DNA from: Balamuthia mandrillaris
Taxonomy: Eukaryota; Discosea; Longamoebia; Balamuthiidae
Reading direction: 5' to 3'
DNA length: 64,000 nt
NCBI GenBank assembly: GCA_031835245.1
Contig: JAVKOQ010000006.1
Location: 124,001-188,000 of the forward strand
The notes under the pieces: generated by a model
Told to the model about the DNA's origin: nothing
The model's input: only the letters and a program-made list of their open reading frames with translations
Databases searched by the model: none
Translations under genes and position numbers: made by a program
Shown: one piece after another, positions 41,082 to 51,612 of the stretch
Layout of the letters: each line of letters opens with the position of its first letter
Position numbering within the stretch: the stretch's first letter is position 1

Positions 41082-43898
41082 TTACCAGCCGTACTCCGGA
41101 GGAAGGTTGGAATAGGAGGAAGAGTAGGGAGAAGAGGAAGGTGGTTTCTTGATCATGGACTGAGCGGCCTGTTCCGTTTGGAAGAGGCTGAGGAAGACCT
41201 GTTCTTGCCCAGAGAGGGTTTGCTTCTTGGCAAAACCACGCGAAGAACGACCGCGATAGAGAATCTTGCCCTCGTTGGTGATGCGCGCTCGTGACTGCAG
41301 CTTCAACGAGCGAAGACGATAACGGCCGAGAATGTATCCTATCAATGCATCACTTACACCTATAAAACAGAGCATGGGAGCAAGGTCAATAACTGGAGCA
41401 GAAGGAAGAGAAGGAGGAGAATAAAAATATGTGAAGAAGATGTACCTGTCTCAATCAAAGTAACCGTCTGAAGGGAAGGGAATGCCGCCATCAACATCTG
41501 CAATGCTGAGTCGTTTGTCAACGTGTTCCTCAACGAAAGCTTCCGCAACGAGGTCAACACCTCCAAATGGGAGGTGAAGCGCGTGATCGGCGAGCACCGT
41601 CCCAACGTCAACACCCGCAGATGCTTGCACCCTCTTGTCAAGAGGGAGACCGTCTCCGTCCTCAGGTCAACATGATAGACTTTCAACACCTCAATCATCG
41701 GCGAGAAGTTGATCACCTCATAAATCCACGAATCGGTGATCTCGTATCGTGTCCCAGGATTGCTCTTCATGCCTACACGCAGCTCCCTCAGCTGAGGGCA
41801 TTGCTTGACCAACACCTGCACATCCGATTCGCTGAAGGGAGAATCACACAGGTTGATGTTTCTAAGGTTGGGGCAGTGGCTGCTGATGTAATGGAACTTG
41901 AAGGAGTCCATCACGATGTCCATGTCGCCGGCGCCGCTGTGCACGAGATGAAGGACTTCCAGGTTGGGCGTGCTTTTGAGTAGCTGGCGGACAGCCTCGG
42001 GAGACATGTTGAGCCAACCAAAGGCACGGAAGGAGCGGAAGTTGACAAGTGGTTTCTTGCCCCAGTTCACCACTCCTAATCTGTTAAAGAATAAGAAAAA
42101 GACGTCAGCAGGCAGAAGGAGAAGAAGAAGAAAAAGAAACAGAAAAAGAAAAAGAAAAAGAAAAAGAAAAAATGAAAATGAAGGAGAGGAAAAAAGAAGA
42201 AAGATAGGTAACTGAAAGTAGCCGCATTCAAGGGATTTAAGTTTAGGACAATTGGTGAGGTATTTGACAGCGGTTTGAGTGAGAATGGTGGACTTGGTGG
42301 TGGTGCCCAGTCGCAGCTTTTTCAAATGTTTACAAGTCTCGGAGAGGCAACGCATCGTCATTTCTGAAAACTGAGAGAAGCTCTTAAAGACTCTGTAATA
42401 AATAATTCATTAGCAAGAGAGAAAAATGAAAGGTGACAAAAGCGGAGGGAATAACTAAAGAAAAGAAGAGAGGAAGAAAAGGCTTCACCTCAAGTTTGGA
42501 CAGAACTGAATGATAGGCTGAATGACTTCATCCGGATGTTCAAGAATACCAGGCAGAACGAGGGTGTGGAGGTTGGGACAGAGTTTGCCGATCATCAACA
42601 AACACCGAACGGTGAACTGCCTCTCCAAATCTTCCAAATGGAGCTCTCTCAGGTTGCTACATCGACCGAGAGCTGCCGTCAAACCAACGTCGCTGACTTG
42701 CGTGCACCCTTTCAAAGAGAGCACTTCTAGTCTCGGGTTCATGGCTACTATCCATACCTGTTGTTCGTATTTTAAAGAAACAAAAGTACAAGAATTAAGA
42801 AACAGTAGAAAAAAATATAGCAATGTAAACGAGAGATAATAGGGGGAGGGAGGGAGAGAGAAAGAAGAAACGAACAAGTAGTTGGTCAGAGGCGATGTGC
42901 TCATAGTTTCCTAGATATACAGCCCGCCAAAGTTGTTCGCAGCAGGCAAGACGCCGCCACAGCCGACAAACGGTGGAGCAACGCACTAAATAGGGAAAAT
43001 GCGGCAAATAGCTAAGAATATGAACTATAACTTCTTCTGGCAATGAGCCAATAGTCACTTGCTCTCTTCTTCCTTTGTCCCGACTGTTTGTTTAAGGAAG
43101 GATAAAGAGTCAGCTTACGAATAAAGAAGAAGAATAACAAGAAGAAGAACGAGAACGAGAACGAGAACGAGAACGAGAACGAGAACGAGAACGAGAACGA
43201 GAACGAGAACGAGAACGAGAACGAGAACGAGAACGAGAACGAGAACGAGAACGAGAACGAGCGAAAAGAATAAAAAACCTTTTACGCCAAGCAGCAGCCA
43301 ACTTACTCCCTCGGCTCTCTTTCGGGGACTCGCTCTCCTTCCTTCGGGCCGCCACAATGGCCGCCGTCCTCTCCCGCTCCCTCTCCCTCTCTCTCTCCGC
43401 CCGGTCCGTTTCCTTCAGCTGCCCGCCCTTCCCTTTCTTCTTGCTCTTCCTCTCCTTGTGCTTCTTCCTGCGGGTCTTCTTGGCGGCCGCAGAGAGCTCC
43501 GCTGCGGAAGTCCCAGAGTTGCAGCTGCCCTCCGAGGGCAGCAGCTCCCGCTCGGCCGAGTGCGCGACGAGCACGTCGCGGTCCTGCTCGAAGGAGGAGG
43601 AAGGGGAGCTGTGCCCCGAGCTGAGGGAGCGCTCCCCCCTCAGCTCCCCTGCCAGCGGGTTGGAGGTCGTCGTCGACCCCGTCAAAGATGTCGTCCCAGA
43701 GGAGCCCGTCATGGTGGCGGTCATGGAGCCCCCTCGCTCTCGCACCTTGGAGACGCACTCCTCCAGAGGGTTGAAGTAGCAGTCGTCGTCGTAGTGCTGG
43801 AGCATGAGGTCGTTGTTAGGGCCGCTGCTGCTGCCGCCGGGGAAAGCTCGAGGTGAAGAAGAAGAAGAGAAGGTGGCGGCTCTGCTACCGAGTGACAT
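41082..43898 (-). CDS. F-box and leucine-rich-repeat protein
   Basis: Exon 1 (43898-43279) encodes a Ser/Gly-rich, then Lys/Arg/Glu-rich N-terminus. It joins in phase 2 to an exon beginning at 43083, which carries the F-box (IGSLPEEVIVHILSYLPHFP, STVCRLWRRLA). Further exons give leucine-rich repeats: LEVLSLKGCTQVSDVGL, LRELHLEDLE, LKKLRLGTTT, LEVLHLVHSGAG, LRNINLCDSPFSESDV and LRKLSLRNTLTND. The C-terminus ends at 41082. F-box proteins link SKP1-cullin ubiquitin ligases to targets, and LRR repeats usually choose the target. The first ATG is at 43898; the intron after exon 1 holds the GTTCTC repeat. The upstream ATG is 74 bp from a TGTCGACA site. Confidence 0.85.
43146..43260. repeat. (GAACGA)n hexanucleotide repeat in the F-box/LRR first intron
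   Basis: About 19 units of GAACGA (plus strand), reading TCGTTC on the sense strand. It is the largest part of the first intron. Confidence 0.95.
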
Positions 43899-43971
43899 CC
43901 CCACTACTGCGTTCTCTTTTTTTTTCTTCTCTCTTTTTCAAAAATTTTTTGTGTTCAATAATTTATTTTGC

Positions 43972-43979
43972 TGTCGACA
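43972..43979. promoter_or_regulatory. TGTCGACA palindrome upstream of the F-box/LRR gene
   Basis: An exact copy 74 bp before the ATG at 43898, in AT-rich flanks. The bases that follow on the plus strand (AAATACCAAAAATAAAACGC) resemble those after the copy at 26454. Confidence 0.55.
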
Positions 43980-44160
43980 AATACCAAAAATAAAACGCAA
44001 TTATTGCTTTTTCAAGTAATGTTATCCGAAAAAATTATATTTTTTTCTGGATGAAACACTCTCTTATCTGCTCTCCTATCTAATCTCATGTCCTTCGGCA
44101 AAAAAAAGAGAGAAGAGAACGATGAGAAGAGAACGATGAAGAGAACGATGAGAAGAGAAC

Positions 44161-44196
<36 letters not shown>

Positions 44197-44302
44197 CATC
44201 TGGCGACCTTTCTAGTGGAAATAAAGATTCTGTTGTTTGGGTAAAGCAAACGTTTATCATGAAAGCAAAGTGCAAAGAAGACATCTTATATTTTGTTGCT
44301 GT

Positions 44303-44915
44303 TTAGAGCTCATCTTTCTTTCCCTGGGCGGCCAAAGGCTCGCTGAAAGAGGGGAAGTCGGCGACGGTGGCGCTGTTGTAGCCACTGTTGACGAACTCCT
44401 TGAAGGCCTCCACCGTCCTGGCGCCCTGGTAGGCGTACAGCTTATCACCATTTCGGCTGTTATGCGCACAAAAGCAAAACGTGAGACAAAGAGAAAATAA
44501 GAGATGAGAGGAGAAAAGTGAACAGAGAGAGATAAGAGAGAAAAGAGAACGTACAGCTTGATGGTAGGATATCCCCTCACACCCAACTTACTGCACACAG
44601 CTATAAAAAGAAAAAACGAAGAGTTAGTTACGTTTGTTGTTGGTTGTTCCCCAATATACTGACCCTTCTCCACGGTACAATCCACTTTGCCGACGTTGAA
44701 CTTGCCCTCAGTCTTGGTGGCAAGCTCGTCCCAAGTAGGGGCCAAACGCTTGCAGTGACCGCACCAGGGAGCATAGCTGCATTCGAAAAGAGTGTGAGAA
44801 GAAGATGAATTAATTACCGTCGTAATTATTAAAACTGATAAATGTCTACAAAAACTCTTCTTTGGTCGTCCCCCTTAACAGCTCCATGACGTCTTGAACC
44901 TCCCAATGTGTTGAT
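44303..44915 (-). CDS. thioredoxin/PDI-like protein ending in KDEL, 5' end unresolved
   Basis: Four exons fit in frame (44915-44850, 44776-44664, 44600-44555, 44456-44303): [20 protein letters not shown], then [20 protein letters not shown] with the CGHC redox pair, [37 protein letters not shown], and a C-terminal KKDEL before TAA. This is one thioredoxin domain of the PDI/ERp type with an ER-retrieval signal. Such proteins make or shuffle disulphides in the ER. No exon with a signal peptide is visible upstream, because the next 100 bp run into the leader of the divergent PRXL2C gene. Either a short first exon is missed or the copy is truncated. Confidence 0.75.
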
Positions 44916-45036
44916 CTGTTAATAAAACTTTCAAACCACCAATGAAAAATCAAAATGAATTAGTTGCAGAGATCAGTCACGTCGACCAAAATTACGCATT
45001 TCTTTCCAACAAGAAAAAAAAGAAACAGAAAAAGAG

Positions 45037-45740
45037 ATGGAAGAAGAGGTAAACTTTGCGGCCCTCGATGAGGAGCTCTGCGTGTTTGACGCAGAGTCTC
45101 GCTCTATCCCCTTTGCTTCCCTTTTCGCAGAACGCAAGTTTGTGTTTTTTTCTCTCTCTTCCTTTTTTTTGCAAACCTTTTTCCCATCAGAACAAAAACT
45201 CACTGCTCTTTGATTTTGATTTGATTTTTTTCTTTCATTTCTTTTCATTTGTTGTTTTAACAAAAGGGCCATCATCACCTTTGTTCGCCACTTTGGCTGA
45301 TTTGTGTGCCGCGATTGGGTGAAGGCTTTGAGCGAGGAGATTTCTCCCTCTTTGCTCAGACAGCACAACACCTCCCTCTTTGTCATCGGCTGCGGGCCTC
45401 CCTCTGGCATCCTCCCCTTCAAGCAGGACACTCACTTTGACAAACTGGAATTTGATTCCTCAAAAGAAGAAGAGGAGAGAGTGGCTGACATGTTTGTGGA
45501 CCCCGAGAGAAAAGTGTACGACGCCCTGCGCTTGATCCATGCAGAGTCCTTCTCTCAGCTGAAGGGACAGCCCTCACCTTACGTGAAGAGCGGGTTCATG
45601 GGGGGCATGGCCTGGTCGCTGAAGAAGGTCTTTGCCTCGGGGTTGAACACCGGCGACTTCAAGCAACTCGGAGGAGAGTTTGTGGTGGGTCCTGGCCCTG
45701 TTTGTCACTATGTGGTATGTGTTTTCCTTTCTTCCTTTTT

Positions 45741-45779
<39 letters not shown>

Positions 45780-45919
45780 AACATAAACGTTATAAACCAA
45801 CACCTTAGCATCGACACGAAAATCCCTCTGATGTGTCTAACATTGATACGTTGTTAGAGGCAGCCGGCTGCAAGCCACCACCACAGCAGCAAGAAGAACA
45901 AGACCAGAGCGAACACTAA
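45037..45919 (+). CDS. PRXL2C/AAED1-type peroxiredoxin-like selenoprotein
   Basis: Three exons (45037-45137, 45267-45714, 45809-45919; phases 2 and 0) encode 219 residues if the TGA at 45298-45300 is read as selenocysteine (residue 45). It falls in FVRHFG-U-FVCRDW, exactly where AAED1/PRXL2C proteins have the first Cys of a CxxC redox motif, giving UxxC as in selenoprotein U relatives. The family match runs on both sides of the TGA: LCVFDAESRSIPFASLF before, then VIGCGPPSGILPF, MFVDPERKVYDALRL, SPYVKSGFMGGMAWSLKKVF, GGEFVVGPG and YVHRHENPSD after. The thioredoxin-like fold suggests a peroxide- or thiol-reducing role. A SECIS-like hairpin lies about 135 nt after the stop. A pseudogene reading is unlikely, because splice sites and frame are intact elsewhere. 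Confidence 0.85.
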
Positions 45920-46054
45920 ACGATAGCAACTTTTTCTTGCCTTTTCGTTGTTCGTTTGTGGTTACGTTTTTCCTGTTCATCCACTGCCTCCCTTTGTTTT
46001 TCTTTCTCTTCGTCTTTTTTTTTTTGTTTTTGTTTGGAATCGTTTCTTGTTAGG

Positions 46055-46107
46055 ATGAAGCTTCTTCTTGCAATCCTTTGCAACCAAAGTGAAGAGAAGA
46101 AGCTGAC
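46055..46107 (+). promoter_or_regulatory. SECIS-like element in the 3' UTR of the PRXL2C gene
   Basis: ATGA at 46055-46058; then an 11-bp helix (46059-46069 with 46094-46104, one G-U pair) closed below by GA at 46105-46106; unpaired AA at 46072-46073; and above it a 5-bp mini-stem (46076-46080 with 46085-46089). That is the layout of a type II eukaryotic SECIS: ATGA...AA...GA quartet, about 11-bp helix and apical mini-stem. It lies 135 nt downstream of the TAA at 45917-45919. Confidence 0.75.
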
Positions 46108-46444
46108 AACATACTTTTACTTTTGTTGTTTGACAAGGAACGACGGAGAAACCAAACTGACAACAAAAAAGCAGGCAAAGCAAAGAAAGCAAGCAAGAAG
46201 TTGGTTGTGAAACTGATATTTATATATTCAGCGTTTCTCGTTATTTTTTCTTCTTTATTGGTTTAAAATTTAAATAAGAATATTAGTCACTTGACTACTC
46301 TCTCATGTCCATCACACATAAAAAAACAGTAAAATTTTGTCCACTCTCATGTCCAACCGAAACCGGAAAAAGAAAAGAATGAAAAGCACTGAAAACAAAA
46401 CACGGATATAAAAGAAACCGAAGAAGAAGAAGAAGAAGTAAAGG

Positions 46445-48222
<1,778 letters not shown>

Positions 48223-48498
48223 TATTACAGCAGATTAGATATGTGTTGAGGTGGATGAAACAGAACGGCTGGTGTCTCCTTCGTCTTGCCTGTGTGGAGA
48301 CAATAGGGTCCAGCTGTTGCAATGGTCCTGGCGGCGATGGCTCGGGTGGCCCTTGGGAGGCAGGCAGCTCACCAGCGCTTCTCTGTGGCTCCAAAAAAAT
48401 CCATCAATAATCGATACATTACACCTCTAGCGAAAAAATCTGAATAATTGCAACGATTAACAAAAAATGGGTGATTATCAACAAAAATTCGATTAAGG

Positions 48499-48506
48499 TG
48501 TCGACA
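48499..48506. promoter_or_regulatory. TGTCGACA palindrome upstream of threonine aldolase
   Basis: An exact copy 58 bp before the ATG at 48564, followed by a purine-rich AAGAAAAAG leader. Confidence 0.55.
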
Positions 48507-48563
48507 ACAATCTTCTACTAAAGAAGAAAAAGAAAAAGAAAAAGAAAAAGAGAAGAGAAGAAA

Positions 48564-50231
48564 ATGGAAGGCGACTGGACCGAGTACGTGGACCTCCGCA
48601 GCGACACCGTCACCCACCCGACGCCCGAGATGAGGGAGGCCATGGCCACCGCCAAGGTTGGCGATGACGTCTTTGGCGACGACCCTACCGTCCTCCAACT
48701 GCAGGAGGAGTGCGCGCGTCTCTTTGGCAAGGAAGCGGCCCTCTTTGTGCCAAGGTTCTTGTTCTTCTTCTCTTTGCTGCTGCTGCTGCTTCTGCTTCTT
48801 TCTTTCTTTCTTCTCTTTCTAACCGCAAAACAAAACAAAAAGCGGAACACAAGGAAACCTGATAGCTTTGTTGACGCACTGCAACCGCGGCGAGGAGGTC
48901 ATCGTGGGGGACCTCGCTCACATTTTTCTCTTCGAGGCCGCTGGTTGGTTCTCTTCTTTTTCATTTTTCATTATTTTTCTTTTATTTTCATTTCTTTTTT
49001 AATATTTTTATTTTTATATTTTCTTTTTTTGTTGTTATATTTTATATTTTATATTTTATTTTAAGTTTTATTTATTTTTATTATTTATTTATTTATTGTT
49101 AGTTTATTTTATTTTATTTTATTTTGTTTGCTTTTGCTTTTGTTTCACTTATATTTGTTTTTGTTTAACAAAATATATATCATTTCTTTCAAAATAAAAA
49201 ATAGGCATGTCGGCAGTTGGAGGATTGATGCCTCGCACATTGCCGGTGAGACCCGATGGCACCATCGCTCTGGAGGACATTGAGGCCGCCATTCGCACCA
49301 AAGACGACCATTTCCCCACCACTCGTCTCATCTGTCTTGAGAACACCCAAAACAAAGCTGGAGGTATTTGTCGTTACTATGAACCCTTTTTCTCTTTTCT
49401 CTCTTTATCTCGTCTGGCTTCTCTCTTCTCTCCTTTTTGTCGGCTCTTCTCTGTCTTTCTAACAAGCGAAAATAAAAGGAGTGGCATTACCACCAGAGTA
49501 TATCTCCGCCGTCTGTGCTCTTGCCAAGCGCCACTCGCTTGCCGTGCATATGGATGGCGCTCGCATCTTCAACGCCTTTGCCTCCTACCCTCCCTCTTCC
49601 TCTCTTTCTCTCGCCTCCCTTGTAGCGGACGTGGACAGCATCACCATCTGTCTATCCAAAGGCCTCTGCGCACCTGTTGGCTCCGTGCTGCTCGGCACTC
49701 GCTCCTTTATCCAACGAGCAAGAAGAATTAGGAAGATGTTGGGAGGAGGCATGAGGCAGGCTGGAGTGTTGGCGGCAGCTGGTCTTTTGGCCATCGGAGA
49801 GGAGATGAGGGGCAGAGTCAAGGAGGACCAGGAGAGAGCAGAGGCCATTGCGGAGGGCATCAGAGGAAGCGAGGTGTTGAAACCGTACATGCAGGTAGTG
49901 AAGAACGCCACCAACTTTGTGTTTCTGAAGTTCCTTGGTAAGTTTTGAATCTCTCCATCTTCTTTCCTGCATCTTTCTGCACTTCTTTTTCTGAACTGTT
50001 TTTCTCTTTCTTATTCGATAAACAGGTCACAAAGATCAAACTCAAGAACAAAACGAAAAAGATGGTTCTTTGTTGGTCCGTCGCTTGAGAGAAAACCACA
50101 AAATCATTCTCATCGACAACACAAATCACAACAACTTTCGTCTCGTGACTCACTATTGGATCAAACCGGAACATGTCCAAAGAATCATTTCTGCTTTCGA
50201 GGCTGAGGTTTCTCACTTGTATCCTAACTAG
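48564..50231 (+). CDS. low-specificity L-threonine aldolase
   Basis: Five exons (48564-48754, 48843-48943, 49205-49363, 49479-49937, 50026-50231) give 371 residues. Signature blocks: [64 protein letters not shown] and the PLP-lysine motif [11 protein letters not shown] (Lys211). The enzyme is a fold-type I PLP enzyme that splits L-threonine or allo-threonine into glycine and acetaldehyde in the cytosol. Three of four introns are phase 1. Intron 2 (48944-49204) is extremely AT-rich. The C-terminal exon ([15 protein letters not shown]) is complete. Confidence 0.93.
48944..49204. other. extremely AT-rich intron of threonine aldolase
   Basis: A 261-bp intron composed mostly of TTTTA, TTTAT and TATATTTT units, unlike the CT- or TTC-rich introns elsewhere in the window. 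Splice ends GTTGGT and AAAATAG are normal. Confidence 0.85.
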
Positions 50232-50321
50232 TGATCAGGCTGTTGTTGCTGTGAAGAGGATGAAGTTGATTTCGTTATGGTTTCGCAGCTTCTTCGTATG
50301 ATGTTGTTGTCTCGCTCTCTT

Positions 50322-51612
50322 CTATCCTACAACAGTTCCTTTTCGTTTCTTCTCTTCATTACTTTCTCCTTCTTCTTTCTTCTTGTTCTTCTTGTTCTTC
50401 TTTGTCCTCTTTTTCATTGTTATTATCCTCTTTTTCCTCTTCTCTTCCTCTTTATGCTTCGACAGTACCTCCTGAAGATCGAGCCAACTTTGTGATCCTT
50501 CAAGGAAGCTGCTGCTTCTTCGTAATCCACGAAGATGATCTTTGGTACGGCTGCTCCTTATTCCTCTTTTGTCTTCAACTTTTTCTTTATCGTTTGCGCT
50601 TGCATTTGCGTTTTTGTTGTTGTTGTTTAAAGTTGGAGGAGATGACTGGCGTGGTCTTCTTGCCGTTACAAGCCCACTCATTGAAACCAAGGGAACGTAT
50701 GAAGTGGTAAAATCATCTTCTGGTTTCTTTTCCACTAAAGCAGGAAGATGGAGTAGTTTTCGCTCAGCCTCATCGATGATCGTTTGTGTCTTCTTCTTTC
50801 TTCGTTCTTTTCGGTCCATATTGAAACTTCGGAAGGAGAACGCTCTATGTACTCCTCTTCCTTTCTTCTCCTCTTTCCCGAGGTTTGTTCTTGCATCCCC
50901 TTCTTTCTTTTCTTTCTCTTTGTGTAGTTCTTCTTTGGCATCTTTCTTCCTCTCTTCCTGTTCTCCTCCCTTTTCTTCTTTCCTCTTTGTGCCCACTTCT
51001 CTTTCTTTATCTTCCACCACTTCTTGTTCTTTCATCTCAAACAGAGTTTGTCCCATCTCCCATATCCTTTGCTCCTTCTCTTCCTTTCTCCTCTGCCGCT
51101 CGTTCCACTTGCGCTCCTTCTCAGCCGCTTCCTCCTGCCATCGCCTCCGTTCTCTCTCCTCATGGATGTCCGGCACCCAGGAGGGATCCCAATAGTTGAG
51201 AGAGCGTTTGCGGCCGATGAAAGGTAACGTCCCTCCGAATGGATAGTCTCTGCCGTCTTTGTCTTTTCTCGTTCTGCTTCTTTGTTTGACGTCGTTTGAA
51301 GAGAAGCTGTGTTCCGTTTCATCTTCTGAAGAGGAAGAAGCGGACGAAGAAGAAGAGGAGTAGGAAGATGAATAAGAAGAATCGGAAGAGGAGGAAAGAG
51401 TCGAAACAGAAGTGGTGGTAGGTAGATGCTTAAAGTGTTCTTCAGCAAAGCGACCTTGAATTGCAACAAAAAAAAAGCGTGAGACTACAAGAAACGGGGA
51501 AAAAACGGTGAAGGGTTTTGATAAAAAGCAAACGAGAAAAAAGGGAAGAAAAATAGATACCTAGAGATGAGAGTGAAGCAGAAAGAAAGAAAGAGAGAGA
51601 GAGAAAGAATGA

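Follow-up and report, generated by a model that had tools for sequence, protein, structure and literature searches.

A putative UGA-containing selenoprotein of the PRXL2C/AAED1 (SelU2) branch in the amoeba Balamuthia mandrillaris

The stretch of DNA analysed here, referred to as the window, comprises 64,000 nucleotides of Balamuthia mandrillaris contig JAVKOQ010000006.1 (C5, 538,335 bases; positions 124001-188000), and the genome searched alongside it amounts to 64.8 Mb in 775 contigs. A glucokinase exon on contig C100 of this genome matches PDB 6VZZ ('BamaA.19900.a') without a difference over the first 75 of its 79 residues, and in PMC8569187 that structure is attributed to B. mandrillaris. 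A gene of three exons in this window (Table 1) translates into 219 residues with one in-frame TGA, at codon 45, in the context ITFVRHFG-U-FVCRDW. Both introns begin with GT and end with AG and the TAA stop is in place, in agreement with a preliminary description of this DNA, in which the splicing was called intact. The boundaries given for intron 2 are the best reading, because they agree with the stretch ...HYVHRHE... of the corresponding NCBI protein. A Pfam search placed the AhpC-TSA_2 domain (PF13911) in the protein with an E-value of 3.7e-13 and 50.3 bits, against a curated cut-off of 27. A thioredoxin/PDI-like gene on the minus strand (approximately 44450-44890; Pfam Thioredoxin, E-value 4.4e-17) lies head-to-head with the gene, and a promoter region common to the two is possible. 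Directly 3' of the gene, on the plus strand, is an RNase Z-like metallo-beta-lactamase gene (approximately 46446-48000), which has a TTC/TTG repeat tract inside it at approximately 46755-47038.

Table 1. Features of the candidate selenoprotein gene, in positions of the window; C93 is the contig carrying a second copy of the gene.
Feature	Position	Strand	Remarks
Exon 1	45037..45137	+	ATG at 45037; from translation; GT donor at 45138; 99 of 101 positions identical in C93
Intron 1	45138..45266	+	GT..AG; identity with C93 outside gaps 77%, against 98% for exons 1 and 2
Exon 2	45267..45714	+	FVRHFG-U-FVCRDW and most of AhpC-TSA_2; 441 of 448 ungapped positions identical in C93
In-frame TGA, predicted Sec 45 (UxxC)	45298..45300	+	Cys in homologues; present in C93
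Intron 2, with (CT)n tract	45715..45808	+	GTATGT..TTAG; fits NCBI protein
Exon 3 and TAA stop (45917-45919)	45809..45919	+	105 of 111 positions identical in C93
3' UTR region	45920..46445	+	Taken as far as the likely ATG of the next gene
Candidate SECIS, type II-like	46055..46106	+	ATGA, 11-bp helix, AA, 5-bp mini-stem, GA; inside 91-nt run identical in C93

In the public annotation, the gene is represented by a 'hypothetical protein' of 111 aa (QOT17_000945), whose first residue corresponds to residue 109, 3' of the TGA, so that it lacks the first 108 residues, the active site included. A truncated annotation had been predicted in the preliminary description, and the truncation fits what is reported for vertebrate selenoproteins in GenBank in PMC12822975.

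A collinear, diverged copy of the gene, with the TGA, the introns and the stop all retained, was found on contig C93. In the comparison, which covered approximately 13 kb of C93, blocks of 86-92% identity extend over window positions 44,971-51,602 and are followed by a 400-base piece of 68% identity and then by a block of 88.7% identity to 55,356. With gaps left aside, the first two exons agree at 98% of positions and exon 3 at 95%, compared with 77% for intron 1; for intron 2 the figure is 97%, with 106 gap columns set aside. The codons of the two copies differ by 12 silent and 2 replacing changes and 1 codon indel (pS 0.084 versus pN 0.004). Downstream of the TGA, 10 silent differences stand against 2 replacing ones and one codon indel, and the codon adjoining the TGA itself differs silently. 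This is the coding constraint expected of a frame that is translated past its UGA, and it demonstrates, for the two copies compared, both of them from this genome, that the downstream frame is under selection. A decayed frame with the TGA replaced in relatives, which the preliminary description had named as a sign against its reading, is not what the copy in the same genome presents. Contigs with similar-scoring matches also form other sets in this assembly (C37/C438/C403, C12/C288 and C123/C197, in addition to C5/C93), and it is possible that these pairs and triples are separated haplotypes or an old duplication.

All parts of the SECIS element claimed earlier for this gene (ATGA/AA/GA, an 11-bp helix and an apical mini-stem approximately 135 nt past the stop) were located. 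The hairpin starts 135 nt past the TAA, with ATGA at 46055-46058 and the 3' GA of the core at 46105-46106, and its apical loop has GCAA on the 5' side; it combines the 3' UTR position, the quartet, a helix within 11-13 bp and the apical AA by which such elements are recognized. A strict SECIS pattern matched the real window once on the plus strand, at this element, and not at all on the minus strand. Since the pattern was composed with the element already in view, its chance figures are lenient: of 3000 dinucleotide-shuffled versions of 45920-46460 (541 nt), 9 had any match and 1 had a match of equal score, and 20 shuffles of the whole window gave a mean of 0.05 matches each, none equal in quality. 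A looser scan returned an extra, weaker match on the minus strand (score 9.5 versus 11.7 for the element of the gene). The 46-nt element folds at -17.0 kcal/mol versus a shuffle mean of -8.4, with 2 of 500 shuffles equal. Two results speak against the element: a surrounding stretch of 90 nt folds only slightly better than its shuffles (z -1.31; equalled by 20 of 200), and an Rfam scan of 43500-47200 gave 12 matches up to an E-value of 10, with no SECIS family among them.

The strongest support for a SECIS comes from the conservation of the element in the C93 copy. Outside gaps, the 3' UTR is 81% identical before 46030 and 84% identical after 46123, the latter figure involving many gap columns, partly since the C93 sequence supplied extended further. 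Between these positions, within limits chosen with the alignment in view, 93 of 93 ungapped positions (46030-46123) agree, and there is a single gap column. The 91 nt that match without a break (46030-46120) span the candidate SECIS and form the longest non-coding run of identity in the alignment.

The placement of the gene in the PRXL2C/AAED1 family was examined by comparison among 11 sequences. The human sequences of PRXL2A, PRXL2B and PRXL2C used as references are provisional versions, of which that of PRXL2B agrees with PDB 9us9 over the part compared. Human AAED1/PRXL2C is the clear best match among them (34% over 201 aa, 116 bits), compared with PRXL2B (26%, 50 bits) and PRXL2A (25%, 42 bits). 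This favours the PRXL2C/AAED1 (SelU2) branch over those of PRXL2A and PRXL2B, as had been proposed, on the basis of pairwise similarity rather than a tree. The TGA aligns with the first Cys of CxxC in all three of these human sequences, and the site FVRHF-x-[CU]-x-x-C is shared with AAED1 (C9orf21, SelU2), the first position being Cys there and UGA, read as Sec, here. A homologue search yielded five proteins from 228 candidates, all with Cys at the TGA position; this first Cys is the only one in common, their second Cys lying two residues on, not three. The open reading frame and the alignments bear out the preliminary description in putting the TGA at the position of the first active-site Cys. 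A search with the part past the TGA returned one protein from 89 candidates, namely the truncated NCBI record of the gene itself, and a GTDB scan with the protein gave 55 pattern matches, none of which was a relative.

The closest solved structure by sequence is PDB 9us9 (PRXL2B, prostamide F synthase; E-value 1.9e-6), a Cys form of another branch, to which a paralogue on contig C60, discussed below, is nearer. An AlphaFold model of exon 2 alone, built with six sequences, was too poor to be used (mean pLDDT 51). A thioredoxin-like fold with the Sec at the N-end of the first helix would be expected of a member of the PRXL2 family.

The components by which UGA is decoded as Sec are present in this genome. 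The tRNA-Sec was identified with Infernal at 70.9 bits against a cut-off of 47 and has the anticodon UCA; it is the only one of six genome matches to exceed the cut-off. Matches under the cut-off were not counted, because the same model also matches 14 of 14 control genomes below it (5 above it). ARAGORN reported no gene at this locus, although the Infernal score is well above its cut-off. SepSecS was found on C38 (308.6 bits, with neighbouring exons) and SBP2 on C138 (PDB 7zjw, E-value 1.6e-25). PF01248 gave 17 matches in total, that on C138 included; of the others, those that could be named by eye were eS12-, SNU13-, eL8- and RPP38-like. For EFSec, the bacterial SelB model gave 37 matches, and the stronger ones examined were judged by eye to be eEF1A, mitochondrial EF-Tu, and IF2-, eEF2- and eIF5B-like proteins. 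The true eEFSec, on C95, corresponds to two low-ranking matches of that model and was recognized through the eukaryote-specific PF21208 (73.9 bits; 0 of 14 control genomes match), with PDB 5izk at an E-value of 5.9e-43. On contig C3, three of four GTPase matches have one to three in-frame TGA codons (121427-121645, 433156-433578 and 446429-447121), as would be seen if part of the contig followed a different genetic code, or if it were of foreign or non-nuclear origin.

A PSTK-like gene on C13 scored 24.6 bits against a curated cut-off of 382.35 and was recognized by eye from motifs typical of PSTK; it is probably PSTK. SPS matches lie on C37, C438 and C403. In the two loci that were read, C37 and C403, SPS2 has its UGA in LTRFAELKG-U-G, with an intron next to it, and past the stop there is a SECIS-like hairpin; the hairpins of the two are one base deletion apart. 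SPS2 is an internal control, being a classic selenoprotein of the same genome in which, as far as the two loci can be read from their DNA, a UGA is combined with a SECIS-like hairpin. The tRNA-Sec, EFSec and SBP2 sought on the advice of the preliminary description are all present, as are SepSecS and SPS2, with PSTK under its cut-off, and this genome therefore has the Sec machinery that a selenoprotein gene needs.

With the TGA at the catalytic Cys, a conserved SECIS candidate and the Sec machinery in the genome, the selenoprotein reading with a UxxC site, as first put forward, is well supported. Given the gene anatomy, the position of the codon, the SECIS candidate, the selection on the frame and the presence of the machinery, all of which are observed, it is highly probable that the gene encodes a 219-residue, peroxiredoxin-like selenoprotein of the PRXL2C/AAED1 (SelU2) branch, in which UGA 45 is read as Sec via the SECIS. 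In the mechanism proposed, the SECIS in the 3' UTR would recruit SBP2, and eEFSec would supply a ribosome positioned at the UGA with Sec-tRNA(UCA), so that this codon would be decoded as Sec. The protein is predicted to adopt the thioredoxin fold of its family and to act as a thiol/selenol oxidoreductase, in whose U-x-x-C redox site Sec45 would attack and Cys48 would resolve; the substrate may be a peroxide or a disulfide.

Three other explanations for the TGA have been considered. That the gene is a pseudogene, or an allele with a nonsense mutation, and its protein truncated or absent, would agree with the start of the sole public protein record 3' of the TGA, but is very improbable in view of the TGA in both copies, the ratio of silent to replacing differences past it, the intact introns and stop, the position of the TGA at the catalytic Cys and the presence of a conserved SECIS. 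Equally little credit can be given to the idea that UGA, without selenium, stands for Cys, Trp or some other residue, be it through a changed nuclear code or simple readthrough. TGA is indeed rare as a stop in this genome, being found at one of the eight gene ends that returned a stop (the others were 6 TAA and 1 TAG; eEF1A returned none). Against such a code stand the tRNA-Sec with its UCA anticodon, SBP2, eEFSec and SepSecS, as well as SPS2 with a UGA at the classic Sec site and a SECIS-like hairpin, and the conserved SECIS of the gene itself.

Alternative splicing that uses a 3' splice site further into exon 2 could also remove the TGA and give a selenium-free protein, and six AG dinucleotides do lie within approximately 80 bases past it. 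The part that would be skipped, however, comprises FVRHFG and the redox site, which are well conserved in the family, and is 98% identical between the two copies, as in the remaining coding sequence; this route is accordingly rated as extremely improbable.

The predicted decoding of UGA as Sec at this site may extend to other members of the family in the same organism. A genome search with PF13911 gave at least four matches, namely the C5 and C93 copies and loci on C19 and C60, and TGA is present at the aligned redox site in all four PRXL2-type loci found. The PRXL2B-like gene on C60 (127000-131000, minus strand, match 128511-129245) reads RRFG-U-PLTREG, that is, U-x-x-T with Thr in place of the second Cys, and shows 49% over 70 aa with the human PRXL2B reference. 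The match also spans a TAA, which is taken to be intronic. A SECIS-like hairpin with a 5-nt bulge, missed by the first scans, was found by a relaxed scan approximately 90 nt past the TAA, and the C60 gene is probably a selenoprotein. The C19 gene (310000-314500, minus strand, match 311964-312455) reads LRNFA-U-FACHL and has a hydrophobic C-terminal stretch that looks like a membrane anchor. No convincing SECIS was found in approximately 1650 nt past its stop, where the hairpins present are weak (-9.2 and -6.6 kcal/mol), and it is a possible selenoprotein. Sec at the same site in three PRXL2 paralogues might mean that Sec is ancestral for eukaryotic PRXL2, with Cys taking its place afterwards in most animals, one branch at a time, a proposal to which we give somewhat less than an even chance. 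The occurrence of TGA at the redox site in all PRXL2-type genes found here is the more interesting extension of the present finding.

SelU comprises, in the relevant passages of PMC3473315, SelU1 (C10orf58), SelU2 (C9orf21) and SelU3 (prostamide synthase); Sec SelU2 is named there in Trichoplax only and Sec SelU3 in several invertebrates, and the three families are proposed to have diverged before animals. The earlier statement that animal AAED1 uses Cys is therefore not fully right, since it fails for Trichoplax according to the same passages. Trichoplax adhaerens SelU2 is, as described there, a Sec form of the same branch, from an animal and not an amoeba. SelU1-3 are given as fish selenoproteins in a passage of PMC2397514, all vertebrate Sec forms are placed in SelU1 in one of PMC3316567, and passages of PMC7539508, in which the subfamily is not given, report Sec SELENOU from over half of 36 algal genomes. 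SelU1/SELENOU of fish, birds and algae has Sec in the same PRXL2 superfamily, animal SelU1 belonging to the PRXL2A branch. In all, a Sec form is known in the wider PRXL2/SelU family and is rarely seen in the AAED1/SelU2 branch.

The use of selenium by amoebae is not new, because passages of PMC4561486 describe SPS2 for Amoebozoa and candidates for Acanthamoeba, and a thioredoxin reductase selenoprotein of Acanthamoeba is treated in passages of PMC11459619. For Dictyostelium, five selenoproteins are given in the list excerpted from PMC2375036, with SelU absent from it. In the parts of the open literature covered by our search, no report of a Balamuthia selenoprotein or of a Sec AAED1 in an amoeba was found, and 'seleno' is absent from the main text of two Balamuthia genome and transcriptome papers. 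The suggestion that a Sec form of AAED1 in an amoeba would be a new member of this branch is in line with the lack of an amoebal SelU report in that literature.

The gene described here would add an amoebal Sec AAED1/SelU2 to a branch in which a Sec form is named, in the passages of PMC3473315 cited above, in one animal only. An amoebal Sec SelU2 would also support the view, proposed in the same passages, that Sec entered the PRXL2 family early, before animals arose. For Balamuthia mandrillaris, an amoeba that infects people, the presence of SPS2, of the SelU2-like gene and possibly of two more PRXL2-type genes with Sec indicates that the organism uses selenium.
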